A stretch of 43,969 nucleotides of DNA from a virus. The notes under the pieces are model-generated. The model was not told where the DNA came from and did no database searches. It saw nothing but the letters and a program-made list of their open reading frames with translations. Location of the stretch: positions 1 to 43,969 of IMG/VR virus record IMGVR_UViG_3300044695_003744; one strand, written 5' to 3'. The first letter of the stretch is position 1. Each line of letters opens with the position of its first letter. Below are positions 24,534 through 41,667 of the stretch, one piece after another. A program made the translations under genes and the position numbers.

Positions 24534-24541
24534 TATTTAGT
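24534..24541 (-). promoter_or_regulatory. Possible late promoter (CTAAATA type)
   Basis: ACTAAATA on the minus strand, overlapping the gp14 stop and 24 bases before the gp15 ATG. Confidence 0.4.
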
Positions 24542-25967
24542 ATTCACCAAACGGGTTCTTTTGACTGAAATCTACAATTTGATCTGCAGCTAATTCAATT
24601 TCAATATTTTCTGCATATGCATCTAAGAATTCATTAGTTTGTACAGTTGATACTTTATAACTTGCAGCTACACCAACTATAGATTCTCCTCTTGCAAAAG
24701 TTCCGTCAACAACAGAAAGTTTGAGAACTCTATTTACATAATCCCAACTCTTAACATATCCAGTAGTGCCTGTTCTAGAGCCAGTGACCACTTCATTGTA
24801 GTCATAATCTCCAAATGTAGTTGCAGTAGGATCTGTGAAAGATATTGTTGGCGTAAATGTGTATCCAGCTCCAGCATTTGAGTACCGAACCGCAACAACT
24901 TCACCATTAGAATTTACCACAGCCTCGGCTTGTGCATTTCTGATATTAGAAGAAATACCTGTACTGGTAGGAATAAAGATTCTTTGAATTATCGCTTGAG
25001 GAGTTGTACTATATCCAACACCTCCAGAAGAAATTCCGATAACTCCAAGAACTCTTGTATTGATTACAGCAGTAGCAATTCCACCGCTTCCACCACCTCC
25101 AGAAATGGTTACGATTGGGGGTTCTATGTAACCAAAACCAGGATTCGTGATAAGGATTCTGTCAATTGCAAGTTTTTGATTTGGGGACCTACTTGTCATA
25201 ATTGCAACCGCAGTTGCTGTTAGACCACCAGATGGTGCAGTAGATATAGAAACTGTAGGAGGTAAAGAATATCCAAATCCATCATTAATAAGATCAATAT
25301 ACTGGACTGACTTGGAATTTGGATTAGTTGTTGCAAATCCAACAGTTGCTACAGCCGTAGTTGCTCCAGATCCAACCATTTGAATGGTGTATACGTTTCC
25401 AAGATCCTTAATGGATTCATTGATTTCTATTCCAGTAGGATCAACTTCAGGAACATCAATAATCTCATCTTCATATTCAAATCTTTCACATCTTAGTTCA
25501 TAGACATATAGATTATTAAGTTGATAGAAAGGTTTTTTGCCCTCAACATACTTAATTTCAAATAAAGATTCATCCAAAGGAAACCAAATCAAATCTCCTT
25601 CTTGTGGTCTATATGCAACTTTTCTTTCATCTTCTGGCCATAATTTTAATAATGGTGATATAAAATCATCATATCTTTCCTTTGAAATTACTAGATTGAT
25701 TTCATCATTACTTCTGACTCCAAATTTACTTAGTAAATCCCCATTTCCACTAAATCCTTCAAAATTCATTAAGTAGGCTTCAATACGAAAACTATCATCA
25801 AATTTTGACGCAGTAACTTCTTTAATAACTGTATTTTCCCCAATAATTCTTCTGGGCATGTATAGAACGTCTTGTCCATACATTTTAAGTTGTTCGTTAA
25901 TTAGATCTTGAATGAGTCTTTGTTCACTCGGAGATCCCTGAAGAAAATAAGAATTTAGTGGTGACAT
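24537..25967 (-). CDS. 14: gp14-like neck protein with large beta-repeat insertion
   Basis: A protein of 476 residues, nearly twice T4 gp14 (256). Residues 1-190 match the family: MYGQDVLYMPRRI, EAYLMNFEGFSGNGDLLSKFG, EGDLIWFPLDESLFEIKYVE, and KKPFYQLNNLYVYELRCERF. The T4-like C-terminus resumes at about 440 (NIEIELAADQIVDFSQKNPFG). Between them lie about 240 residues of Gly/Ser/Thr-rich beta repeats with the motif NPGFGY..PP.V.ISGG, occurring about four times. gp14 forms the head-tail connector with gp13. The repeats probably project outward as neck decoration or whisker-like structures. Confidence 0.93.
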   Translation of the reverse strand: MSPLNSYFLQGSPSEQRLIQDLINEQLKMYGQDVLYMPRRIIGENTVIKEVTASKFDDSFRIEAYLMNFEGFSGNGDLLSKFGVRSNDEINLVISKERYDDFISPLLKLWPEDERKVAYRPQEGDLIWFPLDESLFEIKYVEGKKPFYQLNNLYVYELRCERFEYEDEIIDVPEVDPTGIEINESIKDLGNVYTIQMVGSGATTAVATVGFATTNPNSKSVQYIDLINDGFGYSLPPTVSISTAPSGGLTATAVAIMTSRSPNQKLAIDRILITNPGFGYIEPPIVTISGGGGSGGIATAVINTRVLGVIGISSGGVGYSTTPQAIIQRIFIPTSTGISSNIRNAQAEAVVNSNGEVVAVRYSNAGAGYTFTPTISFTDPTATTFGDYDYNEVVTGSRTGTTGYVKSWDYVNRVLKLSVVDGTFARGESIVGVAASYKVSTVQTNEFLDAYAENIEIELAADQIVDFSQKNPFGEY

Positions 25968-26873: not shown

Positions 26874-27668
26874 ATGATTATATTAACAGGATCACAAGGT
26901 TTCATTGGAAAAAACTTTCTTTCCACGATTAAAGAGCCTATAATAGAAGTGGAAAAGGGTAATGCTTTTCGTTTTATATCTGGGTTTAATAAATGGGATC
27001 AAGTATCCTTAATTTTGCATCAAGGAGCAATATCTTCAACGACTGAGAGAAACATTCAAACGTTACATCACAATAATGTTGTCTTTTCTTTGTTTCTTTT
27101 TGAAAAAGCAATAGAGCATGGAATATCAGTAAAATATGCTTCATCAGCATCAGTATATGGAAATCAAACAAAAAAATCAAAAGTCATAAATCCACTAAAT
27201 TATTATGCAATAACTAAACTTCAAATTGATTATTTTGTCCAAGATAATATAGAAAAATTTTCGAGTATTCAGGGATTTAGGTACTTTAATGTTTATGGGC
27301 AAGGTGAAGATCATAAAGGTGATCAAGCAAGTCCAATCTCTAAATTCACAAAACAAATTCGTGAATCAGGAAAATTGAACCTCTTCAGAGGATCAGACAA
27401 ATTTTTAAGAGACTTCATCTGTGTTGAAGATGTTGTTGATGTTGTTTTAAATAATAGCCATCCATCAGGAATCTATGATTTGGGAACAGGAAACCCTATT
27501 AGTTTTCAAGAAGTTGCAGAATTAGTCTCAGAAAAAGAAAAAGGGGAAGTCGAATATATCGACTTCCCCGAACATCTTAAAGGTAAATATCAAGATTATA
27601 CTTGTGCTGACATGAAATGGATTGGTGACTATAAGTTTAAAACAGTTAGAGAGTATCTCCTTCAATAA
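26874..27668 (+). CDS. hldD: ADP-L-glycero-D-manno-heptose 6-epimerase-like protein (HldD)
   Basis: A short-chain dehydrogenase/epimerase of 264 residues (E. coli HldD: 310). The NAD(P)-binding motif is GSQGFIG at 6-12; the catalytic set is S91 and Y111-x3-K115. HldD-specific segments are unmistakable: HQGAISSTTERN, YASSASVYGN, GFRYFNVYGQGEDHKGDQAS, LFRGSDKFLRDF, and FPEHLKGKYQDYTCADM. It would convert ADP-D-glycero- to ADP-L-glycero-manno-heptose. It is the only plus-strand gene in the window and converges on the minus-strand glycan genes, overlapping the cupin gene tail-to-tail by 23 bases. There is no obvious Shine-Dalgarno sequence. Confidence 0.93.
   Translation: MIILTGSQGFIGKNFLSTIKEPIIEVEKGNAFRFISGFNKWDQVSLILHQGAISSTTERNIQTLHHNNVVFSLFLFEKAIEHGISVKYASSASVYGNQTKKSKVINPLNYYAITKLQIDYFVQDNIEKFSSIQGFRYFNVYGQGEDHKGDQASPISKFTKQIRESGKLNLFRGSDKFLRDFICVEDVVDVVLNNSHPSGIYDLGTGNPISFQEVAELVSEKEKGEVEYIDFPEHLKGKYQDYTCADMKWIGDYKFKTVREYLLQ
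27531..27569 (-). terminator. Strong minus-strand terminator located inside hldD
   Basis: GGGGAAGTCGA (27543-27553) and TCGACTTCCCC (27559-27569) form a perfect 11-bp stem with a 5-base loop. On the minus strand it is followed by TTTTTCTTTTTC. It lies 77 bases beyond the cupin stop codon and would end the glycan-gene transcript. There is no U-tract on the plus-strand side, so hldD mRNA should read through. Confidence 0.88.
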
Positions 27669-28011
27669 TACGAATACTATCACTATCGAAATGTTGAGTT
27701 GAGAATTCAAACAACTCAGTATCTTCTAAGGCATACATTCTATGTCTTAATCCAACAGGAACATGAAAGTTTTGACCCTTTTTAAGGGTCCTTTTTTGTG
27801 CCAAATTAATGTCATCATCATACCCATAAAAAAGAATCAACATTCCAGACTGCACATAGAATGTCTCATCTTTTATGTTGTGATAATGCCAAGAACACTT
27901 TTTCCCTTTTACAAAATATAAAAGTTTTCCACAATATTGTTCATTGTTTACAATCCATTTTTCAAATCCCCATCCTTTGGGGACAAATTTAATTGAAGAA
28001 GTCATCTGCAT
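27646..28011 (-). CDS. Single-domain cupin protein of the glycan cassette
   Basis: A protein of 121 residues with cupin metal-binding signature WHYHNIKDETFYV (two His, Glu) followed by GQNFHVPVGLRHRM with a further His. Such small cupins act as sugar-phosphate isomerases or epimerases, or have structural metal sites. Similar proteins occur in phage and capsule sugar clusters. No GmhA-type sedoheptulose-7-phosphate isomerase is visible here, so an isomerase role is tempting but unproven. It overlaps the HAD gene by 23 bases. The plus-strand terminator of hldD is encoded within it (RTLKKGQ region). Confidence 0.8.
   Translation of the reverse strand: MQMTSSIKFVPKGWGFEKWIVNNEQYCGKLLYFVKGKKCSWHYHNIKDETFYVQSGMLILFYGYDDDINLAQKRTLKKGQNFHVPVGLRHRMYALEDTELFEFSTQHFDSDSIRIIEGDTL
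27774..27797 (+). terminator. Plus-strand terminator for hldD, located inside the cupin gene
   Basis: GACCCTT-TTT-AAGGGTC followed by CTTTTTTG on the plus strand. A perfect 7-bp stem plus U-tract, 106 bases after the hldD stop codon, and within the antisense coding sequence of the cupin. Confidence 0.85.
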
Positions 28012-28318
28012 TCACCGCTTTGTCATCAATGTACATATCCCCACTTGGTTTGCCCATGATTAATTCATGATACTTGCATCCCCAATCATCCAATTGTGTT
28101 TTTGTTAGATTATAAAAATCCGCATAAGCTAGATTTGAATTATCAAGATGTCTTCCCATACCACGAGCAGTAAAGTACTTGATAATATGTCCTTCCTCGT
28201 AAAGACGATTGATGGTATCAATACGGTCTAACTTTGGAATACTATTATGATAGTAACCATCTTCTCTGCAAATGGGTTTATCACAAATTGTTCCGTCGAT
28301 ATCAATTACATAATTCAT
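27989..28318 (-). CDS. Small HAD-superfamily phosphatase
   Basis: A protein of 109 residues. Motif I is DIDGTIC (D6, D8), motif II the Thr in YFTARG, and motifs III/IV are GKPSGDMYIDDKAVN. The compact fold and sequence resemble small phosphatases in capsule and LPS loci. In an ADP-heptose pathway a GmhB-type phosphatase must remove the 7-phosphate from heptose-1,7-bisphosphate. This protein could fill that step, though it is shorter than GmhB and not clearly of that family. Start overlaps the kinase stop by 17 bases. Confidence 0.85.
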   Translation of the reverse strand: MNYVIDIDGTICDKPICREDGYYHNSIPKLDRIDTINRLYEEGHIIKYFTARGMGRHLDNSNLAYADFYNLTKTQLDDWGCKYHELIMGKPSGDMYIDDKAVNADDFFN

Positions 28319-29057
28319 TCACATCTTCCTTTGATAATACGTAAGTTCCTGGATATGATACAGCAATTGCGGCCGCCCTATTAGCAATGGGTATTGCTTC
28401 CTCTATTCTACCACAATTCAAATATCCGAACACAAGGGCAGATAAGAAAGTGTCCCCAGCTCCAACAACATCATAAACATTTACTTTTTCTCCCGGATAT
28501 ACTACTCCATTGTATTCAGCACCTTTTGATCCATGAGTGATAATGACATTGGAGTTTTTTTCTTCTAACTTTTCATATTCATGTTCATTGATCTTGACAT
28601 AACAATTGTATGAAGGAAGAATCTTCTTTTTACTGTCAATAAATGTGGGACATTTCATGTTATAAACAATCTCAAATAATTTTGAACTCGTTATAAATCC
28701 CTTGTCATAATCACTAATTACGACCGCATCATATGGTTCATTTGGAATTTCATATTCCATTGGTTTACAAACAACTTCTTCGTCAACTCTAAGAATTTGT
28801 TGATTTGTCCTTTCATCAATATAACGTGTCTTAATAATTTTTTCTTGATTTGTCATCATATAAACTTCAAGACCTAATGCTTTAAGATTGTTATAGACAT
28901 TCCATGCCATCCCTTGTCTTGTTTCGGTTTTCTTGTAGTTTAAGATTGGAACAGGTGCTTCTGGATTCAATCGTTTAACTTCTCCATAAACATATTTGTC
29001 TATGCAACTATCTCCGATCAATAATACTTTGAATGATTTTTGTTGAGGAGTATTCAT
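28302..29057 (-). CDS. PfkB-family heptose-7-phosphate kinase-like protein (HldE kinase half)
   Basis: A compact ribokinase-fold protein of 251 residues, about 60 shorter than the kinase domain of HldE. The N-terminal GDSCIDKYVYGEVKRLNPEAPVPIL closely follows HldE/RfaE. RYIDERTNQQILRVDEE and VVISDYDKGF are also typical, and DVVGAGDTF carries the catalytic Asp (D202). The usual Gly-Gly-Ala-x-Asn motif is changed to RQGMAWN, and part of the lid seems deleted. It would phosphorylate D-glycero-D-manno-heptose-7-phosphate at C1. It overlaps the nucleotidyltransferase gene by 50 bases in another frame. Confidence 0.9.
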   Translation of the reverse strand: MNTPQQKSFKVLLIGDSCIDKYVYGEVKRLNPEAPVPILNYKKTETRQGMAWNVYNNLKALGLEVYMMTNQEKIIKTRYIDERTNQQILRVDEEVVCKPMEYEIPNEPYDAVVISDYDKGFITSSKLFEIVYNMKCPTFIDSKKKILPSYNCYVKINEHEYEKLEEKNSNVIITHGSKGAEYNGVVYPGEKVNVYDVVGAGDTFLSALVFGYLNCGRIEEAIPIANRAAAIAVSYPGTYVLSKEDVNELCN

Positions 29058-29409
29058 CTATTCTATCAAAAAAAATTAATCTTTTTGCAAACTGAGATCC
29101 AATTACTGGTTTATTTTTCCAATCAGAACCTACTATCATTATATCTGGATTGAACCCTTTTATCAATTCTTCCAACTCTTTATCATTAGAAAAAGTCTCA
29201 ACCTGATCTACAGGTTTTAACATATTCAAGAAAAATCTTCTTTCATCTTGATTGTGTATTGGTCTAGATGTTCCTTTCTTTTCCTTTACCCGTTCGTCGT
29301 CATCAATAGCAACTATTAAATAATCACCATAAGATTTTGCAAAATTCAAAAGTTGTAAGTGGCCTACATGAAGGACATCAAAGGTTCCATTAACAAATAT
29401 TTTTTTCAT
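29008..29409 (-). CDS. HldE-type cytidylyltransferase-fold nucleotidyltransferase (ADP-heptose synthesis)
   Basis: A protein of 133 residues with the nucleotidyltransferase motif GTFDVLHVGHLQLL (HxGH at 14-17), DDDERVKEKKGTSRP, and the C-terminal YSSTKII. This matches the C-terminal half of HldE, which transfers AMP to heptose-1-phosphate; glycerol-3-phosphate cytidylyltransferases are a related alternative. In E. coli kinase and transferase are fused in the order kinase-transferase. Here they are separate genes in the reverse order with overlapping ends. Its ATG overlaps the carbamoyltransferase stop by four bases. Confidence 0.9.
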   Translation of the reverse strand: MKKIFVNGTFDVLHVGHLQLLNFAKSYGDYLIVAIDDDERVKEKKGTSRPIHNQDERRFFLNMLKPVDQVETFSNDKELEELIKGFNPDIMIVGSDWKNKPVIGSQFAKRLIFFDRIDEYSSTKIIQSIIDRR

Positions 29410-31100
29410 TCGTTAGGAACTTTAACCAATTTTTGAATTTCGGGAAGATACATATATTCAATATCACTATTCTGAAGGGTATCAATTGCATCAACAATAG
29501 TTTCTACAAGAGGATCTCCGCCAAGATTGAATGAAGTATTGAAGAGGATGGGAACATCACTCAATTTTTCAAAAGCATCAATAAGTCTATAATAATGATC
29601 ATTCTGATCTTTTGTAACCGTTTGAATTCTACAAGTTCCATCAACGTGAATTACTGAGGGAATTTTTTCTTCAACGCCAGGTAGACAATCTACAGCATAC
29701 ATCATATGAGGAGATTCTTCTCTTCCAGCAATATCAAACCATTCATTCACTTTCTCTTTGAGAATTGTACAAGCAAATGGACGGAAGAACTCACGACGCT
29801 TAACTTGGTTTACGAGATCCTTGCCATTTTGAATGGTGGGATCAAAGAGAATTGAACGATTTCCTAGTGCTCTAGGTCCACCCTCTGAACGACCTTGGAA
29901 GATAGTAACAATATTACCATCACGAATAAGTTTTGCTACCTCGTTATAAGTTGTGGGTTGAACATCCAGTCCTTCTAAATACTCTTCATAAGTTTCTGGA
30001 TCATACTGAGGGCCATAATAAATTGAAGACTGTCTTTCAAATGGAGTTTCCATTTCAGTTATTTGTGCATGAGTATATTTTGCACCACCAATAGATGTTC
30101 CTCCATCATGGGAGATTGGTTCGCAGTAAATATTGAGATCTGGGAATTCTTTCCAATACTTGTAGTTGGCAACACAATTTAGACCATAACCACCGCAGAC
30201 AACGATATTAGTTTCACCAGTTTCTTCGTGAGCTTTACGAATGAGATCAATCATTCGGGTTTCAGTTTCCTTTTGTACTAAGAACGCTAAATCTTTTTGA
30301 ATTTGAGTGTATTCACCTTTAGAATGATTTTTTACATCTTCGGAAAGAATATCATATCTTTGGTGATTTATTTTAGACCCATTTGGATAATTGGGTACAA
30401 ATACTTCACGATTTGCCCACCCATTCCTAAAAAGTTCAGGAAGATCTTGATTTTCTTTTCCATATGGAGACAATCCCATTGTTTTTCCAGCATCTATGGA
30501 AGAAAATCCACAATACTCAGTTACCGCTTCATATGTTTTTGTTAGTCCTGGATATTCTGTGAGAATATATTTCCCATCCTCATCCAATTTAATAATACCG
30601 ATACTTTCTTTGGATCCAAAATGTTTGTAAACAGAATCGAACTCTAATGGATATTTTGCTTTAAATATAGATTCAAATTCGTAAATGACTCCTGGACAAG
30701 CATCAGTCTGTAAGAAACTTCCAGCACCATCAGCAATCACACACGCTGCAGTTTCAAATCCAGAATTTAAAAATGCACAAGCAGCGTGCATTTCATGATG
30801 TTTTGTGTCAATAAAATGAGTTTGATATTCAAATTTCTTTCTAGAAAGTTTTCTTATCCAACCATGATACAGATCTTCCCCAGTCCAATCTAGTTCAGGT
30901 CCGTTTCTATGAGTATGACATATTACTAAATGGTCAATATGGTCTACATATTCAAATACTTTTAGTAGTCCTAGAAGTGGACTTCCATCGTGTTTCCAAC
31001 GAGAAAGTCTTTCCTCTTCAACATAAAAAATTACTTCACCATCAATCATCAGAGTTGTGCTTGCATTGTGTCCGCGAGCACAGGAAACAATAATACTCAT
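29406..31100 (-). CDS. Carbamoyltransferase (NodU/CmcH/TobZ family)
   Basis: A full-length protein of 564 residues. The N-terminal Kae1-like domain has the early motif HNASTTLMIDGE, then FIDTKHHEMHAACAFLNSG (metal-binding His residues) and CVIADGAGS. The C-terminal YrdC-like domain contains IVTIFQGRSEGGPRALGNRSIL and LFNTSFNLGGDPLVE. The family transfers carbamoyl from carbamoyl phosphate, via carbamoyl-AMP, to hydroxyls on sugars or antibiotics. In this setting the acceptor is probably a sugar made by, or transferred with, the neighbouring genes. A GAGGT ribosome site lies before the ATG. Confidence 0.95.
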   Translation of the reverse strand: MSIIVSCARGHNASTTLMIDGEVIFYVEEERLSRWKHDGSPLLGLLKVFEYVDHIDHLVICHTHRNGPELDWTGEDLYHGWIRKLSRKKFEYQTHFIDTKHHEMHAACAFLNSGFETAACVIADGAGSFLQTDACPGVIYEFESIFKAKYPLEFDSVYKHFGSKESIGIIKLDEDGKYILTEYPGLTKTYEAVTEYCGFSSIDAGKTMGLSPYGKENQDLPELFRNGWANREVFVPNYPNGSKINHQRYDILSEDVKNHSKGEYTQIQKDLAFLVQKETETRMIDLIRKAHEETGETNIVVCGGYGLNCVANYKYWKEFPDLNIYCEPISHDGGTSIGGAKYTHAQITEMETPFERQSSIYYGPQYDPETYEEYLEGLDVQPTTYNEVAKLIRDGNIVTIFQGRSEGGPRALGNRSILFDPTIQNGKDLVNQVKRREFFRPFACTILKEKVNEWFDIAGREESPHMMYAVDCLPGVEEKIPSVIHVDGTCRIQTVTKDQNDHYYRLIDAFEKLSDVPILFNTSFNLGGDPLVETIVDAIDTLQNSDIEYMYLPEIQKLVKVPNE

Positions 31101-31109
31101 AATTTTACC

Positions 31110-32192
31110 TCAATTTTTAATGTCGTTTAATTCCAGAATTTGATCAATTGTTTTTTTCTTGGTTGGTTTTGGTTTTTGGAATCCAGGCATTACACTTGGA
31201 TTTATCGGAAGATTATTTTGACTTGTTCCATTTTTTGATACACCTGATAAATTCAATGTATCATTATTGACCTTACTTACGCCAATTTTATCTTTAATTG
31301 ATTTGGAAATTTCTTTTATTCTTTCATTACTTAAAATCATCAAATCTTCATTATTTCTATCATATTGATCTTCAAAACTTATTCTTATTGGGCTATATTT
31401 CCTTCTATTTTTTCCATTATCTACGATATGGAAATTTTTATTATTTGGATAGGAAATATTTTCAGGATAAGTTGAACCTATAACTACAGTACTTGGTTTG
31501 TTCAATGCATATGCAATGTGTTGACCCATGCTGTCACATCCCAGAAAATAGTCGGCAGCATTAATTATACCACCCCATTGTGTAATTGGTACATTCTGAG
31601 GACAAGCGACTCCAAGTTTATCCCAATCTGGAATTGGAATTTGTGTCATTAAGATGACGCCATAATTTTTCTTCAATTCATCAATAACTTTGTATATATC
31701 CGAAAGTTCAAAACTTCTACCTGTGACATCATAAGTAAATTTTCCTTCAACTTTTGCAGAACTGCCAAAAGGTTGAAAAACTACAATTTTATCTTTTTTT
31801 AGAACTTCTCTTACTTCTTCTACTAGATTATATCCGAATATTTGTTCTTGTTTGTTTAATTCTAAATTAATTTTTTTAGTATCTGGTATATGATTCAGTT
31901 CATTGATTAATATATCAAATGCTTGAATCAAATTACACTCTTGAGTGAAATATGCATTGAGTCTATAGGGTTCTGGACTTACAATTTCCTTATCAAGTAA
32001 AAGCGACTCAAATAAATTTTTATGATTAATAGGATAAACTTTATCCCTTAGTACTTTACTACAGGAATAAAATTCTCCCCATGATTCGGCAACGACTATA
32101 AAATCGTCATGTCTTTTGGCATATTCTTCCAAAGCGGGTATGGAACAAAGGACCCTACCCGCACCACCATTGATGAAAAATGCTTTATTCAT
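31110..32192 (-). CDS. GT9-like (heptosyltransferase-type) glycosyltransferase
   Basis: A protein of 360 residues with the two-domain GT-B pattern of family 9. It begins MNKAFFINGGAGRVLCSIPALEEY. The C-terminal donor domain contains QWGGIINAADYFLGCDSMGQHIAYALNKPSTVVIGSTYPE, the D-[ST]-x-x-x-H-x-A-x-[AS] type signature of ADP-heptose users. Residues after about 300 form a low-complexity Asn/Ser/Pro/Lys tail not typical of LPS heptosyltransferases. Together with HldD and the split HldE it makes ADP-heptose the best-supported donor. The acceptor is unknown: LPS, fibre protein or other. It starts 43 bases after a late promoter and has an AGGTGG ribosome site. Confidence 0.88.
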   Translation of the reverse strand: MNKAFFINGGAGRVLCSIPALEEYAKRHDDFIVVAESWGEFYSCSKVLRDKVYPINHKNLFESLLLDKEIVSPEPYRLNAYFTQECNLIQAFDILINELNHIPDTKKINLELNKQEQIFGYNLVEEVREVLKKDKIVVFQPFGSSAKVEGKFTYDVTGRSFELSDIYKVIDELKKNYGVILMTQIPIPDWDKLGVACPQNVPITQWGGIINAADYFLGCDSMGQHIAYALNKPSTVVIGSTYPENISYPNNKNFHIVDNGKNRRKYSPIRISFEDQYDRNNEDLMILSNERIKEISKSIKDKIGVSKVNNDTLNLSGVSKNGTSQNNLPINPSVMPGFQKPKPTKKKTIDQILELNDIKN

Positions 32193-32234: not shown

Positions 32235-32242
32235 TATTTATT
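32235..32242 (-). promoter_or_regulatory. T4-type late promoter for the glycan operon
   Basis: AATAAATA on the minus strand in the 79-base gap after the Cys-rich gene, 43 bases before the glycosyltransferase ATG. It would place the whole minus-strand glycan operon under gp55 control. Confidence 0.5.
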
Positions 32243-32271: not shown

Positions 32272-33336
32272 TTATTTAAAGCAAATACAAACCAATCCCA
32301 TTTTACCAGAACAATCCCCATACATACCAACCGCACCACCAAAAGCACTTGAAGGCCAACCACCCGCACTAGGAACTCTTAATCTGCCACAACATGCTTG
32401 GTTAGCCGAACCGCAACAGATACCATCATAGAAAACTGTACACTGAGACTCGGAAAGGAATCCAAAAACTGGTGGGTGACAGTAACAAGCCGCATTATTA
32501 TTACCGCAACTGCATAGAGATGAGAACATTCCTTTTATTCCATATATCGAGCCAACAGGAGATGATCCATAATAATTTGCTCCAGGGGTGAATGGATGAA
32601 TGCAGCATACGCCAACACCAGTTGCTGACCAACATCCAAAACTACCTCCCCCACAAACAGCGTATCCACATCCTTGACTACATTTTGATCCAAAATAACA
32701 AGCAGATACAGCATATCTACCATTACATACCATCCACTTACCCAGTTCCCCAATACCACCATCTACACAGAAATTGCATAATCCCGGTCCTTGAACGAAG
32801 GATTTATCTCCGTCTGGTCTATGGCAACCATATGTACAGTATGCACAAATTCTTGGAGCACATCCACTATGGATTGTATAAGTTGCTCCAGCTGTTACAG
32901 GAATAATAAGTGATGCATATGCACCAGTTCCACCAAAAGGAGATATAGAACAACACATTCCTCCACTACCAGAACCAGATCCAGCACCCCAAATCTGGAA
33001 TCTTGCACAAGTTACTCCACTAGGAACAGTCCAAGTACAATCCTTACCCTGAGAGAAATATTGATTAACAACACCATCATCCCCACAAACAGTAAATCCA
33101 CCAGTCCATCCGGAACCAGCTGCTACACAAGACCAAAGACTTGTTTGAGCTGGATTTGCTAGTAATGAAGGTTCTATGCACCGAACCCAACAACTATATT
33201 CAGGAGTAAACAAACTTGCAGAAACCGCAAGAGCAGTAGTTTGGGGTCCTTTTACAGCTATGCAAGCGCTCTTTTCGGAAACTTGAGTAGTTAAATAGTC
33301 TTTTGCATTTTCTGCACTGTATCTTAATACATCCAT
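32272..33336 (-). CDS. Cys/Gly-rich probable tail adhesin, paralogue 1
   Basis: A protein of 354 residues with about 35 Cys (10 percent) and very high Gly and Ser. After a distinct N-terminus of about 70 residues comes a module shared with the gene at 34044-35159: GSGWT.GF.VC, CTWTVP.G.TCARFQIWGAG, SPFGG.GAYAS.I.PVTAG. A Cys/Gly-rich body follows, and both end in the same type of tail (GKMGLVCICFK). Glycine-rich bodies of this kind recall polyglycine-helix adhesins at the tips of T-even-like fibres, and similar proteins occur in cyanophages. A virion receptor-binding role is inferred; disulphides or metal sites are possible. Confidence 0.8.
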   Translation of the reverse strand: MDVLRYSAENAKDYLTTQVSEKSACIAVKGPQTTALAVSASLFTPEYSCWVRCIEPSLLANPAQTSLWSCVAAGSGWTGGFTVCGDDGVVNQYFSQGKDCTWTVPSGVTCARFQIWGAGSGSGSGGMCCSISPFGGTGAYASLIIPVTAGATYTIHSGCAPRICAYCTYGCHRPDGDKSFVQGPGLCNFCVDGGIGELGKWMVCNGRYAVSACYFGSKCSQGCGYAVCGGGSFGCWSATGVGVCCIHPFTPGANYYGSSPVGSIYGIKGMFSSLCSCGNNNAACYCHPPVFGFLSESQCTVFYDGICCGSANQACCGRLRVPSAGGWPSSAFGGAVGMYGDCSGKMGLVCICFK

Positions 33337-33342
33337 GGAATT

Positions 33343-34002
33343 TTACTGGTAATTTTTTAGAAGGTCTTGTATTTTTTCAGGAATCGGAAAAACTGATTCA
33401 AGAACATTATCAAAATTTGTATATTTCCAACTCATAAAATATGGATTTTCTTCTATATACTTATCTATATCTTTTACGACTTCTGAAATTTGATCTAATA
33501 AGTCTAAAGAAACATCTTGGTCTTCACCTTTTTCTTTTTTTCCTTCTTCATTACTTAAAATAAAACCCAATCTATTACGAATAGCAGTTAAATTCAAAGT
33601 CACATAATTATCAAGATTATTTTTTGCAATCACATTTAATTTAATTGATTTTAATTCTGAGTCATAAACAGCGTCATAACAATCCAGTAAAGTTGGATTT
33701 TTTATTTTTTGATAAATATCTCCATTTTCCATAATCTCCTCTTCATATTCATATTCATGATTTTCTAAAAGATTTGTCAAATAATAACAAATTTCTGGTT
33801 GTTGTTCAGCATTAATTTTGATTAAACTGCAAGAATCAACATCGTAATGTTCTGGATTAATGCCATTAATAATGCCAGTAGGGGTGTGAACCAATACATT
33901 TATGTATTTTGGTCCATCATAAGTTAAAGAAATTTCTTTCCCTTCATCAAAAGAATTGATATAAAGTTCATCTGGCATTGGATAGGAAAATGTTTTTATC
34001 AT
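33343..34002 (-). CDS. Unknown protein between the two Cys-rich paralogues
   Basis: A protein of 219 residues that I do not recognise. It begins MIKTFSYPMPDELYINSFDEGKEISLTYDG and is rich in Tyr, Asn and Glu. It has a mixed alpha/beta look, a charged loop (EEGKKEKGEDQ) near residue 155 and the C-terminal segment YFMSWKYTNFDNVLESVF. Its position between two fibre-like paralogues would suit a fibre assembly chaperone or a connecting virion protein; neither can be shown from sequence. It has its own late promoter and ends six bases before the downstream Cys-rich gene. Confidence 0.75.
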   Translation of the reverse strand: MIKTFSYPMPDELYINSFDEGKEISLTYDGPKYINVLVHTPTGIINGINPEHYDVDSCSLIKINAEQQPEICYYLTNLLENHEYEYEEEIMENGDIYQKIKNPTLLDCYDAVYDSELKSIKLNVIAKNNLDNYVTLNLTAIRNRLGFILSNEEGKKEKGEDQDVSLDLLDQISEVVKDIDKYIEENPYFMSWKYTNFDNVLESVFPIPEKIQDLLKNYQ

Positions 34003-34043: not shown

Positions 34044-35159
34044 TTATTTAAAGCAAACACAAACCATTCCCATTCTACCGGCATCACCACAAATCGATAA
34101 ACAACCACCAGCAACTTGCATCGCAAAACCACCAGAACCAGGAAGTAAAAGAGATGCAAGTACTGCACCAAAAGTAGCGCTAGCCGAACAGTAGTTTCCA
34201 CCACAACTGGTGGAACTACTGAGAGAAAATACGCACTGTGAAGATGATTCGAATCCATAAATTGGTGGATTTTTGTGATACCCACATTTACAGTAGTGGG
34301 CCATACAACTCTCTCCATATGCACCAGCAATACCATAAACAGTTCCACCTGTAGCTGAACCATAAGATAATGCTGAAGAATGGTACGCAGGAAGCATCAT
34401 GTGGGGATTACTTGAAAATCCACTTCCACAACACTGGATAGTAGGAACTGCTTCATTGAATGGAGTACTAATCGTTGTAGAACAGAAACTAGATCCAGTA
34501 CCACAAATGCAATATCCAAGAAATGACTGACAAGTATATGCAGGTCTAGCGTCTATAATACCAGTTTTATAATAATAAACATCTCTATCAATCATTTGTT
34601 GACAAAGATTTCCTATTCCACCCATGGCACAGAAGTTTGTTAGTCCAGGCCCAGTGATATAAGAAGCACAACCATTTCCATTACTTATACAGTTCCAACA
34701 TCCATAACAACATAGAGCGCAACCAGCACAAAGAATATATTGACATCCAGCAGTTACAGGCATAATAACTGATGCATAAGCTCCACTTCCACCAAAAGGT
34801 GATCCTCCACAACAACCAGCAGCACCAGAAGAACCACCAGCACCCCAAATCTGGAATCTTGCACAAGTTGCCCCACCAGGCACTGTCCATGTACAAGTAG
34901 CTCCACATCTAAAAAATCCAGAAGTATCGCAAACTTTAAATCCAGAAGTCCATCCAGAACCAGTCTCTACACAAGCCCACAGTTCTGGTCTAGGAATTTT
35001 ACCATTAATAATACTAGGAGCATTAGTATTAACAGTGGACAAATAAGTGCTACAATTACTATTTAAAGTAGAAATACATGATGTTAAGGTATTATTGCAA
35101 GTCCTTAAAGGTTGATTTTGTTTATTTAAGGAGTTGTATGCTAAAACGTCTATTGTCAT
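34044..35159 (-). CDS. Cys/Gly-rich probable tail adhesin, paralogue 2
   Basis: A protein of 371 residues with about 36 Cys. It shares the central module and the terminal tail (GRMGMVCVCFK) with the gene at 32272-33336, with long runs of near-identical DNA over the TCARFQIWGAG part. The N-terminal 60 residues are different (polar, Asn/Thr/Ser-rich with spaced Cys), perhaps an attachment region. The middle is divergent, as expected for host-range variation. It follows the small YD-repeat-like protein by five bases and belongs to the transcript starting at the late promoter at 35799-35806. Confidence 0.8.
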   Translation of the reverse strand: MTIDVLAYNSLNKQNQPLRTCNNTLTSCISTLNSNCSTYLSTVNTNAPSIINGKIPRPELWACVETGSGWTSGFKVCDTSGFFRCGATCTWTVPGGATCARFQIWGAGGSSGAAGCCGGSPFGGSGAYASVIMPVTAGCQYILCAGCALCCYGCWNCISNGNGCASYITGPGLTNFCAMGGIGNLCQQMIDRDVYYYKTGIIDARPAYTCQSFLGYCICGTGSSFCSTTISTPFNEAVPTIQCCGSGFSSNPHMMLPAYHSSALSYGSATGGTVYGIAGAYGESCMAHYCKCGYHKNPPIYGFESSSQCVFSLSSSTSCGGNYCSASATFGAVLASLLLPGSGGFAMQVAGGCLSICGDAGRMGMVCVCFK

Positions 35160-35823: not shown

Positions 35824-38800
35824 TTATGAAACTCCAATAAAATATGCAAATGCTTTAGCATCTTCTATAGCACCTTCCACATCAGCTCTACTTGTTCCAC
35901 CTAAGAAATTAGCATTCAAATTAGTACATACTGTAGAAGAAGCAACAGAAACTGGTGCAGTTCCCTGAGCAACGTTAGATACAAATCTTGTTGCAGTTAC
36001 GATGCCACTGATTGCAATACCATTATTGAATACAACGTTTCCAGTAAATGTTGGGTTAACCGTTTGGTTAAATGCAGTTCCGTTACCAAGAAGAATTGCG
36101 CCACTTGCTGGGAGTCCAGTTAAACCAGTTCCACCCTTAGTAATTGGAACAGCAGCAGATAAGTTTGCTGGATCAATATAATAAGAAGGCGATTGACTAC
36201 CTAAAGTAGCAGCATCAATATCACCAGTAGTGGAATTCTTGATACTTACTTGACCGTCAACACCAACAGTAAATGTGGATGTCTTAAATCTAGCGACTCC
36301 AAGTGTAGAAAATGTATCTAAAGAAGAAGCGACACGATTTAGGGAGATATTAATATTTCCATAGTAAGTATTGACTCCTACACCACCTGGGGCAGAATCA
36401 AAACTTGTTGCAGTAACCTGGATTGGTTGGGTGGTTCCAATTCCAACACTCTTAACTACTTTTTGGTAAGCTGAATTTCCTGCCAAGAATGTATCTTGAG
36501 TTGCAGATCCTGAACCAAGTCTTGTTGGAGAAACAGTTCCAGAAATAATATTAGAAGCATCAATATCAGACTTAGCGAGTAAAGACCAGTTACTATCTAA
36601 AGCAGAAGAAGTATTTACCGTCGCAGAGTATCTTACATTTTGTTTTGTTACAGTAAGTGTAGTTCCAACTCCAACTGTAGATATTCCTACAGCATTTAAA
36701 GTTACTCCATTAGCCGACTGAGTTGCATCAGATTGAGTTGTATGGAATGTAAATGCGTTGGTAGTTACTGATCCAACATAATAGAATCCACCTGTCGTAA
36801 TTCCTGTTGGAGTTGCCCCAGTAACTTTAATTGCATCACCAGATGCTAATCCATGATTAACAAATACTAAAGTATTTTTGTTTTCATCTATAGTATTTCT
36901 TATGAGGGAATGAGTTCCAGTTCCACTCGAAGTAAGTGATATTGGTGAGGCAATTGCGTAAGTATTAAAAACTTGTACAGAACCAATACCAACTTTCTTA
37001 ATGTAATAAGTATTTCCATTAATTAGACCACCAATTGAATTACCACCATTATTTCTGTAAATAACTGGATCACCATCACCTAAGTTTGTATTGTCTATAA
37101 TAATTCTATTATTAAAGAAGTCTACATTACCACCCGTATTATAATCTGTTGGATCGAATGTTTTAGTTACGACAGTACTGAGATTAGTAGAAATAGCGAC
37201 AGCGTTTCTATCTTGAATATAATCTGGAAGAGCCGTTGATCCTGGGAATTTTTGGTTATTTGTGAGTTTTAAATATAGTCTAGTCTCTACATTCCCTATA
37301 GTAATCTGGAAATTAGATCCTCCAGTTCTACCACCAATTAGAGCTGGATTATTTAAAGTTAAAACATTCCCAGTAGCATAATATCTACCACCAGTACTGA
37401 TAGCAACGTTTGAAACAGTTCCAGCTGCACTAACAGTAACGGTAGCTGTAATACTTGTACCAATACCAGTTACTGAGTTTAGAGAAACACCTGTATAAAT
37501 GCCTGGACTTGTATATCCCGATCCACCGCTAAGTGAAGTGAGATTGAGAGGGACACCCTTAACTAAACCTGTAGTTCCATATGCTACTGATGTTGGAGCA
37601 GTAACGATACCAATAGCGTTTCCAGCGGATAAAGCACTCGTAACAGTATCTCCATTCAAGAAATTATAATTTGTTGTTGGGGAATCTAAAATTAAATATT
37701 CTTGGATAGTATCTTGAACAAGGACATAAGAATTTTCTGGTTCAGCAGCAGTATCACCTTGTCTAATGTTTGCAGCAGGAATGTAGTTTACGAGAGAAGT
37801 TTTTCCACCAATTGTAGTAACAGTAATGAAATTAACCACTTTTGGTGGAATTAAATCTGCATTAATTTGTCCAGATGCATTCAGTTGAACAATATTATTT
37901 GGAATAGCACTGGTACTTACTCTCTTATCAATAAAATCGCCTAAGCGATTATTCATGAATGTTCTTACTGCAAGTTGAGTGGATACTCTCTTATTCAGTG
38001 GTCCACCAATTTCAGTTTCACCTAAATTAACATCTGAGGAGAATTCTTCAATAACTGTACCACCAGAAAGACTCAATCTAAGTGAATCCAACTGACCAAT
38101 TGTAACTTTATTATTGAAGATAATATTACCAGTTCTGTTATATGCGGTAATAAAATCACCAATCTTAAAGTCACCTAGTTCATTAGTACCTGAGGAATAT
38201 ACTCTACCACCTTGTTCCGATACTTGTTCTGAAGAAGGAATTGTTTTACCGCCATTTTGTGGTAAAGCATTATAGTCAATACCAGATCCAGAATATTCCC
38301 AAGTATGCGAAGAGGAGTTGATTATAGATGGTCTATGGAAGTGGAGTTTATATGTTTCTGGAAGATCTCCAATGTCTGGAATTACATTACCAGGTATAGT
38401 AGAGTCTACTTTTGTTTCTACAGTAAAATAAGTTGTAATTCCAGCAACTGCAGTCACTCCTATCGATATTGGTGACGCAGTATGATCGGCAATTGGATTT
38501 GGTGAGGATGCAGAAAATAGATTTTTTATACCACCTACAGATTCTACAGAAACAATAAGACTTCTAGTAGATGACAAATAAGTTAATGCAATACCTACAG
38601 CAGTTCCACCACCAGCAAGAACTTGCGTTACTTCTCTACCAGAAACAAACTTTAATGTAGAACTTGTAGATGCAAGACTTACTCTTTGATAGACATTATG
38701 TGCATCTATGATTTCATAAGCAAAGAAATCCTGATTGTTCTTAAGGAAAGTATTGATGCCTACAAATGTAGATCCTAATGATACAAGTCTTGTTAAACTA

Positions 38801-41667
38801 TCATCTTCATAAAGTCTAAAACTACTTGCATCAATATATCCAATATAATATTGGTTTTTACTAACAAGTCCACCAATTACTTGTTGGGGAATGCTTTGTT
38901 CATTTCCAATATAAACGACACTTTCTCCATTAATAAATGGGTGTGCAGGTATTGTAATTACGCTAGTTGCAGTATTTACTGAACTACCTACATTAAACTG
39001 TTGTTGTACTAAGAGTGGTTTAAAGTTTGATGTTACATCATTATCATTGTCATCGAAGAATCTTAGTACATATAGATCTTGTTCAGATCTCCCAAGTCCA
39101 ACAGTTTTAAGAGTCTGAAGTCCTCCAGAAACTCCCGTTGCAGCAACTCTACCTCTATCAAATGTAAATGAATTTGGACTGAATCCGGTAGATCTAAGAG
39201 CATAATAACCAAAGTTAGTTGCTGAGTTGGTAATTGATAGATAGCCGCCAGACTGTGTTAATGAACCATATCGACAGAAGATCTGGAAACAAGAAACAAC
39301 CTGAGCATAACCATCATTAATTGTTCTCCAACCAATACCACCAAACGAAACCATGGTAAAGGTTGCTGCGACCATGGACTTACCGAATTTAGGTAAATCG
39401 CCAACTGGTGGTTTTTCTGCTTCTTCAGGTATTGCAGGAATATTGTTATCCTGAACTTTAGATCCATCTACTAAAATACCATTTCCACCAAGGAATGAAA
39501 GAATGGAACAGTTCTGGATATATGGAGATTGGGTAATTTTTAATTTACCTAATTGAGCAGTTCCCCCTCCATCATAATAATGTTGTATTGTTGTAATTCC
39601 TGCTTTGATCGTAAATTCTACAGGAGATCCAGTAGAAATAATATCAAAATCACGTTGACCATTTGCATTCGATTCTGGGTAGAAAACTGTTGTAACTCCA
39701 GCATCATAATTGCAAGTAAATCCTAATCCGGAAAGTCTTACTACTTGTCCTTTAATCAATTGGTGAGGAATATCAGTAGTTATTGTTGTAATTCCAGTCG
39801 CATTATTATAATAAGCATCAACTACGTTAACAATGGTTCCACCATATCCAACTCTATTAACAGATGAATCAAATGGATCATCAAAAGCAACAGTATAATC
39901 AAATGTATGTTGTGGAACTCCATCAATAACATAATCTTTCATTGAAATGTTTGTTATATAACAACCATTTCTTACTCTGAATAAATCTTGTCCTGCATGT
40001 AAAGGTCTTACAATGGTATTTCTGAGTGAATCACCTGAAACAGAAATGCCATCTGCAACAATAAGAGGGTTGTTTTCTACATAATCTCCACCTTGAACAA
40101 ATACGGTAACCGCATCTAGAGTTTCTGGTTGTGGATAAGTTTTTGTTGGTGCAAAGCCAATTCCACCAGAAATAATAGCTGTTGTAATTCCAACATATGA
40201 ACCTATTGCAGACCAAACATTAGCGCAAGATGCAATACTATAACTATCTTTATCAACTGTTTGATCATACGCAATAGTAAGATCATATTGTTGAGTAAGA
40301 ACTAACTGATATGTTGTTGGTACTGCAGTATTGTTTATGATATATCTAGAAATAGTAGTAATATATTGGAAGGCAGCTACGGTTTCTGTAAGTCTATCAT
40401 CAAATGAAGCCTTTACAAGTTGATAGTATTTAATTGTTGCATCAACAGTTTTTGAATTTCCTCCATAAGCTAAGTCATGGATAAATCCATCTAAAATGTA
40501 TCCAATATAAAGTTTAGCGTTATTTGAATTGTATCCTGGATCTCCAACTATGGATGGATATTGATTTTGAATATATGCAACAACTTCTGCCTTAATAAAT
40601 TCTTTGTTTAATTTTACTAGATTGGAACCATCTATAAATCTAGAATCGACAGTATTTTTTAGCCTTTGTGAGGCAAGTTGCAATCCTCTCCGTATAGTTT
40701 GTACTGGTAAAATTCTACCATCGTTACTATCATCACCGTCAAGAGCCGATACTACAATTCTAGTTTGTGCAGATGAACCAGCCGAACCAAAGGTAACATT
40801 TCCAGCTCCATCAGTTATTAGAGCTTGGCCGGGTCTACCATCTACAGTTGGGAAACTTAATCCACTAATAATTGCAGATTCTAATGTTGAAATTCCTATA
40901 ACATTTATAGCACTTAGGATACCTGCCTTACCTGTTATTGTACCATCTAGTACTAAATCGGATCCAAAACCTACAAAACCATCTACATAAAGACTTTGGC
41001 CAATACCAACACTTCTATCAACATTTAGGTTGTCATTAAGTTGTACAGAACCATCTACCTCTAGAGTGCCACCTATTTCAGTAAAAGAAGATACACTTAA
41101 GGTATTGCCTATACTAACAGAACCAGTTAAAGAAGATTTACCACCTACACTAAGACTTGCTCCTACACCTAAGTTATAACCAATTTGACCAGCACCACCA
41201 GCGGTTAAATTGGAACCTATTCCTACGGATGTTCCTACAGAAAGGCTACTTCCTATAGAAACAGCAGCTCCAACTACTAAACTAGACCCAATGGAAACAC
41301 CATTGACGACGGATAAATCGGAACCAAATCCAGCTAAGCCACCAACACTTAGGTCTCTAGTTACTGTTATATTTTTTTGAGCAAGTAGATTTGATGAAAA
41401 TCCAACTGCTCCTGCAACATCTAATCCATCTTGCAAAAAGGTAGATCTATTAACAGTAAGATTATCCTCAACAATAACAGATCCAGCAATTGTTCCACCA
41501 ACCGAATTGGTAAAATCTGTTCTTAACAACTCAAATCCATTTGGTTGCGAACCATCGTGAACATGAACTGATTTGTTGGTAGTATTTACAGTAAGTTCAC
41601 CGGACGCGCCAGTAAAAGCTACGTGTTCTTCCTTTGTACCTCTTCTGAGTTGTACCTGTTTAGTCAT
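35824..41667 (-). CDS. Giant tail fibre / virion protein with beta-helix repeats (1947 aa)
   Basis: A protein of 1947 residues. Residues 1-45 (VQLRRGTKEEHVAFTGASGEL...VHVHDG) match the N-terminal domain seen in the major tropism determinant and other phage fibres. Residues about 60-270 are short tandem repeats of the type .VGIGSSL.V.GSV, expected to form a triangular beta helix. Near 300 starts a pectate-lyase-like region with VVSALDGDDSNDGRILPVQTI, FVQGGDYVENNPL and IVRPLHAGQDLF. Later parts contain repeated beta modules. The C-terminus (FLGGTSRADVEGAI) resembles fibre ends. It is probably a long tail fibre or baseplate-attached spike; no enzymatic activity can be claimed. Confidence 0.88.
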   Translation of the reverse strand: MTKQVQLRRGTKEEHVAFTGASGELTVNTTNKSVHVHDGSQPNGFELLRTDFTNSVGGTIAGSVIVEDNLTVNRSTFLQDGLDVAGAVGFSSNLLAQKNITVTRDLSVGGLAGFGSDLSVVNGVSIGSSLVVGAAVSIGSSLSVGTSVGIGSNLTAGGAGQIGYNLGVGASLSVGGKSSLTGSVSIGNTLSVSSFTEIGGTLEVDGSVQLNDNLNVDRSVGIGQSLYVDGFVGFGSDLVLDGTITGKAGILSAINVIGISTLESAIISGLSFPTVDGRPGQALITDGAGNVTFGSAGSSAQTRIVVSALDGDDSNDGRILPVQTIRRGLQLASQRLKNTVDSRFIDGSNLVKLNKEFIKAEVVAYIQNQYPSIVGDPGYNSNNAKLYIGYILDGFIHDLAYGGNSKTVDATIKYYQLVKASFDDRLTETVAAFQYITTISRYIINNTAVPTTYQLVLTQQYDLTIAYDQTVDKDSYSIASCANVWSAIGSYVGITTAIISGGIGFAPTKTYPQPETLDAVTVFVQGGDYVENNPLIVADGISVSGDSLRNTIVRPLHAGQDLFRVRNGCYITNISMKDYVIDGVPQHTFDYTVAFDDPFDSSVNRVGYGGTIVNVVDAYYNNATGITTITTDIPHQLIKGQVVRLSGLGFTCNYDAGVTTVFYPESNANGQRDFDIISTGSPVEFTIKAGITTIQHYYDGGGTAQLGKLKITQSPYIQNCSILSFLGGNGILVDGSKVQDNNIPAIPEEAEKPPVGDLPKFGKSMVAATFTMVSFGGIGWRTINDGYAQVVSCFQIFCRYGSLTQSGGYLSITNSATNFGYYALRSTGFSPNSFTFDRGRVAATGVSGGLQTLKTVGLGRSEQDLYVLRFFDDNDNDVTSNFKPLLVQQQFNVGSSVNTATSVITIPAHPFINGESVVYIGNEQSIPQQVIGGLVSKNQYYIGYIDASSFRLYEDDSLTRLVSLGSTFVGINTFLKNNQDFFAYEIIDAHNVYQRVSLASTSSTLKFVSGREVTQVLAGGGTAVGIALTYLSSTRSLIVSVESVGGIKNLFSASSPNPIADHTASPISIGVTAVAGITTYFTVETKVDSTIPGNVIPDIGDLPETYKLHFHRPSIINSSSHTWEYSGSGIDYNALPQNGGKTIPSSEQVSEQGGRVYSSGTNELGDFKIGDFITAYNRTGNIIFNNKVTIGQLDSLRLSLSGGTVIEEFSSDVNLGETEIGGPLNKRVSTQLAVRTFMNNRLGDFIDKRVSTSAIPNNIVQLNASGQINADLIPPKVVNFITVTTIGGKTSLVNYIPAANIRQGDTAAEPENSYVLVQDTIQEYLILDSPTTNYNFLNGDTVTSALSAGNAIGIVTAPTSVAYGTTGLVKGVPLNLTSLSGGSGYTSPGIYTGVSLNSVTGIGTSITATVTVSAAGTVSNVAISTGGRYYATGNVLTLNNPALIGGRTGGSNFQITIGNVETRLYLKLTNNQKFPGSTALPDYIQDRNAVAISTNLSTVVTKTFDPTDYNTGGNVDFFNNRIIIDNTNLGDGDPVIYRNNGGNSIGGLINGNTYYIKKVGIGSVQVFNTYAIASPISLTSSGTGTHSLIRNTIDENKNTLVFVNHGLASGDAIKVTGATPTGITTGGFYYVGSVTTNAFTFHTTQSDATQSANGVTLNAVGISTVGVGTTLTVTKQNVRYSATVNTSSALDSNWSLLAKSDIDASNIISGTVSPTRLGSGSATQDTFLAGNSAYQKVVKSVGIGTTQPIQVTATSFDSAPGGVGVNTYYGNINISLNRVASSLDTFSTLGVARFKTSTFTVGVDGQVSIKNSTTGDIDAATLGSQSPSYYIDPANLSAAVPITKGGTGLTGLPASGAILLGNGTAFNQTVNPTFTGNVVFNNGIAISGIVTATRFVSNVAQGTAPVSVASSTVCTNLNANFLGGTSRADVEGAIEDAKAFAYFIGVS

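Follow-up and report, generated by a model that had tools for sequence, protein, structure and literature searches.

Coupling of an ADP-heptose-type cassette with a GT9-fold gene and a carbamoyltransferase to cysteine-rich fibre genes in a T4-like cyanophage fragment

The present study concerns a gene cassette at positions 26874-32192 of IMGVR_UViG_3300044695_003744, a 43,969-base fragment of a viral genome with a guanine-cytosine content of 35.9% that was analysed over its whole length (hereafter the window), together with the cysteine-rich fibre genes that adjoin it. The genes named in a previous sequence-only reading of this block, i.e., HldD, a sugar kinase, a nucleotidyltransferase, a HAD protein, a cupin, a GT9 glycosyltransferase, and a carbamoyltransferase, are all present as intact open reading frames (ORFs) with family support. 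What is new here is the coupling of the GT9-fold gene and its carbamoyltransferase partner to genes for cysteine-rich fibre proteins, not the cassette itself, which is already found in P-SSM2, S-CAM1, S-CAM3, S-SSM7, Sf-FS3, and three single-cell viruses; our literature search, which covered open-licence papers only, found no report linking the cassette genes to cysteine-rich fibres.

Gene content of the cassette

The minus-strand genes are transcribed in the order GT9, carbamoyltransferase, nucleotidyltransferase, kinase, HAD, and cupin, and overlap or nearly touch one another. The sequence-only reading had described a single block, which holds for the presence of the genes, but HldD sits alone on the plus strand and is convergent with the rest of the cassette. 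Chance is ruled out as an explanation by catalytic motifs that are kept in dozens of homologues and by synteny across many phages. The genes are as follows:

26874..27668, plus strand, HldD-like ADP-heptose 6-epimerase, 264 residues (TIGR02197, E 3.4e-64; PDB 1eq2, E 5.4e-44)
27646..28011, minus strand, cupin, proposed manno-type aldose-ketose isomerase replacing GmhA (intact HxHxxxxE motif)
27989..28318, minus strand, HAD phosphatase, EcbF/BcbF-like, candidate for the 7-phosphatase (GmhB) step (TIGR01689, E 3e-7)
28302..29057, minus strand, PfkB sugar kinase, HldE-N/HldA-like, shortened, 251 residues (TIGR02198, E 2e-41; PDB 4e84, E 5e-16)
29008..29409, minus strand, HldE-C-like nucleotidyltransferase (TIGR02199, 109 bits, against 77 bits for the glycerol-3-phosphate cytidylyltransferase model)
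29406..31100, minus strand, O-carbamoyltransferase, NodU/TobZ family (PF16861, E 9e-59; PF02543, E 6e-22)
31110..32192, minus strand, GT9-fold glycosyltransferase with Arg for the catalytic Asp, 360 residues (model with a predicted local distance difference test score, pLDDT, of 89.5)

In the alignment of HldD homologues, which was also aligned with 1eq2, the Tyr and Lys of the YxxxK motif are kept in 64/64 sequences, the Lys of the HKG motif in 63/64, and the Rossmann motif in 62/64; we take the YxxxK residues and the HKG Lys to be those known from Escherichia coli HldD. The protein is about 45 residues shorter and scores below the equivalog threshold (217 of 274.6 bits). The kinase family retains GAGD in 52/52 homologues, with RxxPEAPVP also conserved, and both His of the HxGH motif are present in 51/51 homologues of the nucleotidyltransferase, whose best solved relatives are cytidylyltransferases. 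These two proteins had been read as a split HldE; both activities are represented, but each by its own protein, with the nucleotidyltransferase encoded ahead of the kinase instead of behind it, and both proteins fall below the NCBIfam equivalog cut-offs (142 of 345 bits for the kinase and 109 of 181.5 bits for the nucleotidyltransferase). The HAD protein, which had been given the phosphatase step of the pathway, is likewise present with its DxDGT, T, and K-DD motifs conserved among homologues, but is EcbF/BcbF-like (30 of 162 bits) and not GmhB. PHROGs and GenBank carry the label ‘phosphoheptose isomerase’, which was considered as a pointer to GmhA and rejected, as the labelled protein is this HAD. 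That label (phrog_1238) on the HAD gene and ‘cysteine dioxygenase’ (phrog_7851) on the cupin gene recur on the same genes in the loci L002, L003, L004, L006, and L007, and both look like propagated misannotations.

Every step of the ADP-heptose pathway except the GmhA isomerase had been said to have a candidate, and GmhA is indeed absent: neither the window nor any of six complete genomes of relative phages contained a SIS-type GmhA (PF13580) in a search that included positive controls. Judging from profile comparisons, the cupin may fill this gap, which the sequence-only reading left unfilled. Its metal-binding motif HxHxxxxE and a later His are conserved across the 42-row family, and the family profile is nearest in the PDB to D-lyxose ketol-isomerase (best solved match 1e-6). 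Family members also give weak matches to the models Lyx_isomer (40/42, best 2e-4) and phosphomannose isomerase (PMI; 16/42 and 29/42, best 1.7e-6 and 4e-5, respectively), but all 42 match WbuC as well. PMI acts on C6 sugars and GmhA on C7 sugars, but the manno-type ketose-aldose step is the same for both, which makes replacement of GmhA by the cupin plausible. Among loci with kinase and HldD, the cupin is a more constant partner (84/86) than the nucleotidyltransferase (68/86) or the HAD (56/86).

Both domains of the carbamoyltransferase, PF02543 and PF16861, score above cut-off, the structures of TobZ and GdmN are matched, and its motifs are conserved in about 105 homologues. The gene lies no more than two genes downstream of GT9 in 86/87 loci. 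The GT9 assignment itself is clear from predicted structure, but the sequence scores 19.5 bits against PF01075, short of the Pfam gathering score of 22. Since a sequence search of the PDB returned no match, the fold is a predicted one; the best PDB matches of the model in Foldseek were 2h1h, 3tov, 2gt1, and 1psw (E about 2e-9 to 3e-9), and its best structural matches are WaaC, WaaF, a Veillonella GT9, and TibC, i.e., ADP-heptose-type GT9 enzymes and TibC. The donor-side residues D220, H225, and a Lys/Arg near 159 are invariant. The iron finger of BAHT/TibC has CxxC-type cysteines, and CxxC was not found in the 360-residue GT9 sequence. A GT9 search of 201 host-family genomes, run without a positive control, found none. 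In Vibrio phage D505, two giant tail genes flank a small GT9-like gene with the same GGxGR motif as the phage family (L008:7983-8720). Taken as a whole, the gene content supports an ADP-heptose-type pathway without GmhA, a GT9-fold transferase, and a carbamoyltransferase forming one unit.

Coupling to cysteine-rich fibre genes

Upstream of the GT9 start lie the following features:

32235..32241, minus strand, late-promoter-like ATAAATA, 43 bases upstream of the GT9 start (from motif placement)
32272..33336, minus strand, cysteine-rich (9.9%), glycine-rich (15.8%) fibre protein, the proposed acceptor (model pLDDT 81)
33343..34002, minus strand, spacer gene of about 220 residues between both cysteine-rich genes (phrog_9740; recurs here in synteny)
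34044..35159, minus strand, second cysteine-rich, glycine-rich fibre protein (paralogue of the first, 36% identical)

Both fibre paralogues contain about 10% Cys, with about ten cysteines conserved, and the model listed above matches a fibre of cyanophage Pam3, the tail-tip protein of Bxb1, and, more weakly, the glycine-rich domain of ALK. Co-occurrence of the GT9 and cysteine-rich genes in related phages, which the sequence-only reading had put forward as a check, proved almost one-to-one. The sample combined annotated phages with 80 IMG/VR loci retrieved through GT9; a cysteine-rich, glycine-rich ORF lies at most five genes upstream of GT9 in 80/82 testable loci, or 48/49 after collapsing GT9 at 85% identity. 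When the search was started from the fibre, GT9 adjoined it in 67/72 loci, and the five exceptions are cut by a contig end (67/67 uncut); these two locus sets share many contigs, so the two tests are not independent. Loci found by gp13 that have no GT9 and at least 3 kb upstream contained the cysteine-rich fibre in 0/47 cases (Fisher P about 3e-33, a value stronger than warranted, since the loci are related). An apparent exception in the gp13 sample, L096, was rejected as a 152-residue fragment beside the terminase region that is not a fibre. At the same site in Synechococcus phage S-SCSM2R there are two giant adhesin-like genes, and the cassette and the cysteine-rich protein are both absent. 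Over 31 common loci, GT9 distances correlate at 0.60 with those of the fibre, compared with 0.24 for HldD and 0.34 for the cupin, although adjacency alone could account for part of the correlation with the fibre. The sequence-only reading had proposed that the phage decorates either its fibres or a host-surface glycan with carbamoylated heptose, and the near one-to-one co-occurrence favours the first branch and weakens the second.

The placement of ATAAATA, which we take to be the cyanophage late-promoter motif, sets GT9 apart from the other cassette genes. Its total count in the window is at chance (18 vs 18.7) and placement alone departs from it: 13/16 minus-strand occurrences lie upstream of a gene start at a distance of 5 to 50 bases, the gene in most cases being structural (P about 2e-16). 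Over the set of loci, 29/78 GT9 genes (5.2 expected) and 44/98 gp13 genes (5.9 expected) have the motif in front of them, compared with only 2/291 when HldD and the remaining minus-strand cassette genes (carbamoyltransferase, nucleotidyltransferase, kinase, HAD, and cupin) are pooled; GT9 therefore resembles the first gene of a late operon.

The non-cassette genes of the window are of T4-like cyanophage type and comprise those for the portal, sheath, scaffold, protease, neck proteins gp13 and gp14, a helicase, a recombination nuclease, and a long tail fibre:

35824..41667, minus strand, long tail fibre protein, 1947 residues (phrog_5342, E 1e-160)

By its head genes the nearest isolate is S-SCSM2R (nucleotide identity of 78%, with 46% of the first 24 kb covered), whereas the cassette is nearest to P-SSM2 and single-cell viruses (about 68%); a 76.7-kb contig, L260, shares the cassette of the window, with HldD 99% identical. 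Given these cyanophage relatives, the host is probably Synechococcus or Prochlorococcus. The lipopolysaccharide (LPS) of this host group lacks heptose, as reviewed for WH8102 and CC9311 (PMC4515613), in agreement with what the sequence-only reading had stated for marine Synechococcus. Matches to the GmhA model occur in 45/201 host-family genomes, only one of them above cut-off. The gp14-like neck protein (24537-25967) carries an insert at about residues 164-329 that resembles domains of baseplate and other virion proteins. In S-SCSM2R, a gene annotated NblA lies between neck and terminase genes (L338:29659-29826); nblA had not been observed in marine cyanophages as of a 2010 survey (PMC3037559).

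Proposed function and competing explanations

The explanation we prefer, with a rough probability of 0.45, is that the cassette is a late-expressed virion-glycosylation module that decorates the cysteine-rich fibres with carbamoylated heptose. The kinase, HAD, nucleotidyltransferase, and HldD would convert heptose phosphate to ADP-L-glycero-D-manno-heptose, and the GmhA step from sedoheptulose 7-phosphate to D-glycero-D-manno-heptose 7-phosphate would fall to the cupin or, in hosts with GmhA, to the host. The GT9-fold protein would then move heptose onto the adjacent cysteine-rich, glycine-rich fibre proteins, and the carbamoyltransferase would cap the fibre-bound heptose. From gene content and position we infer the identity of the sugar, the role of the cupin, the acceptor, and the site of carbamoylation.

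Several observations weigh against this explanation. We take the catalytic Asp of the N-terminal G-D motif to be D13 in WaaC; the corresponding column, matched by motif alignment rather than by superposition of coordinates, is Arg (R13, in a GGxGR motif) in 56/56 non-redundant GT9 homologues, so that GT9 activity cannot be taken for granted. In TibC the catalytic base is Asp-110, and D110A is inactive (PMC4358343). In the phage protein another residue, e.g., the invariant E22, E74, or H225, may be the base, or the acceptor may need none, or the protein may be no transferase. Of 51 GT9 loci with 7 kb or more of downstream sequence, only 32 contain HldD and the kinase, hence GT9 and the carbamoyltransferase may work without a local ADP-heptose pathway; the local flanks of the loci are 8 to 10 kb, and sugar genes absent from a locus are therefore not necessarily absent from the phage. 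GmhA is missing from all six complete phage genomes, and clear or strong HldE-type kinases occur in only about 27/201 sampled host-family genomes. Lastly, in S-SM2 and P-TIM68 the sugar genes belong to glycan-type clusters that have no GT9, and the sugar pathway is therefore a mobile sub-module that may serve more than one end.

Those clusters, which hold several other glycosyltransferases beside the same sugar genes, are in keeping with remodelling of the host surface, in which the enzymes would make or decorate an LPS or capsule glycan of the infected cell, e.g., against superinfection. Cyanophage LPS genes have been read in this way in print (Sullivan 2010, PMC3037559; Iyer 2021, PMC7824862), but we consider such remodelling unlikely for the present cassette, where GT9 is the only glycosyltransferase in loci of the window type, is locked to the fibre gene, and is preceded by the late-promoter-like motif, where no flippase, polymerase, or ligase was observed in the block, and where the LPS of the host group offers no heptose core for extension. 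Modification of the fibre with a nucleotide-activated sugar other than ADP-L,D-heptose is more doubtful still: the scores of the kinase, nucleotidyltransferase, and HldD below equivalog cut-offs, the cytidylyltransferase relatives of the nucleotidyltransferase, and the missing GmhA would fit such a sugar, but the HldD-specific residues are conserved, the HldE-C model scores 32 bits above the cytidylyltransferase model, and the best fold matches of GT9 are only heptosyl-type GT9 enzymes and TibC.

The Arg in place of the catalytic Asp bears on two further possibilities. The GT9-like protein could be a non-catalytic or differently catalytic partner, e.g., a fibre chaperone, such that the linkage reflects fibre assembly; its position is one where T4-like phages often keep fibre-assembly genes, and the relative in Vibrio phage D505 is flanked by two giant tail genes. 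The invariant donor-side residues and the constant carbamoyltransferase partner argue against this, and we hold it to be improbable. It is rather less probable again that GT9 heptosylates Cys thiols of the fibre, with the Arg stabilising the thiolate and the carbamoyltransferase capping the S-linked heptose to give an S-glycosylated receptor-binding tip, as the Arg is also present in the D505 relative, whose neighbouring tail proteins are not cysteine-rich. Biosynthesis of a secondary metabolite (a carbamoylated, hydroxylated, or halogenated small molecule), after the proposal of Iyer et al. for S-SSM6a, is very improbable despite the relationship of the carbamoyltransferase to antibiotic enzymes and the halogenase and 2-oxoglutarate (2OG) oxygenases of some relatives, given the strict coupling to the fibre gene and the lack of a scaffold-forming enzyme.

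Sullivan et al. asked in 2010 (PMC3037559) whether the co-occurring LPS genes of cyanophages have a function or are stuffer DNA, and the question has stood in the literature since. The one-to-one fibre coupling and the late-promoter-like motif make the claim of fibre glycosylation directly testable, as adducts of +192 Da or +235 Da on named fibre proteins. If it is true, glycosylation of the receptor-binding apparatus would draw on a sugar-nucleotide pathway that the phage itself supplies, possibly including a non-orthologous isomerase.

Comparison with known systems

The closest relatives are the cassettes of P-SSM2 (PSSM2_307-313), S-CAM1, S-CAM3, S-SSM7/S-SSM6a, and Sf-FS3, which have the same genes in the same order around GT9 and the carbamoyltransferase and in which, as in the window, cysteine-rich fibre genes adjoin GT9; the GT9 proteins of the window and P-SSM2 are 62% identical. 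In print, these cassettes are LPS or secondary-metabolite genes of unknown function, and the S-SSM6a cluster was read as capsule decoration or a secondary metabolite (Iyer et al. 2021, PMC7824862). Beyond this shared set, relatives encode 2OG-Fe(II) oxygenases, additional carbamoyltransferases, or a tryptophan halogenase. In S-SSM7 and its relatives (L006:15040-22030; L114; L117) the halogenase and several 2OG-Fe(II) oxygenases lie inside the fibre-side cluster, which suggests further modification of the fibre; the oxygenases of Sf-FS3 are annotated as prolyl-4-hydroxylase-like, and the block in the window has no halogenase or such oxygenase. The clusters of S-SM2 and P-TIM68 (L176:10533-18820; L177:11252-13870) combine kinase, HldD, nucleotidyltransferase, HAD, and cupin genes with those for a transketolase and a zinc alcohol dehydrogenase.

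With the bacterial ADP-L,D-heptose pathway (GmhA, HldE, GmhB, HldD) and WaaC/WaaF, the phage system shares homologues of the kinase, nucleotidyltransferase, and HldD as well as the GT9 fold. It differs in lacking GmhA, in a HAD that is not GmhB-type, in the added cupin, and in having the two HldE activities on separate proteins in reversed order. WapO of Pseudomonas, a carbamoyltransferase acting on heptose II of the LPS core, is likened to the phage enzyme by description (PMC8005017). TibC, a protein heptosyltransferase, uses ADP-heptose as donor to modify an adhesin encoded beside it (PMC4358343), and the TibC/BAHT systems (TibC-TibA, AAH-AIDA-I) share with the phage a GT9-like fold match and a gene that adjoins the modified adhesin or, in the phage, the proposed fibre acceptor. 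The phage protein departs from them in its Arg for the base Asp, its lack of the CxxC iron-site motif, and its carbamoyltransferase partner, and the phage has a fibre where TibC/BAHT have an autotransporter.

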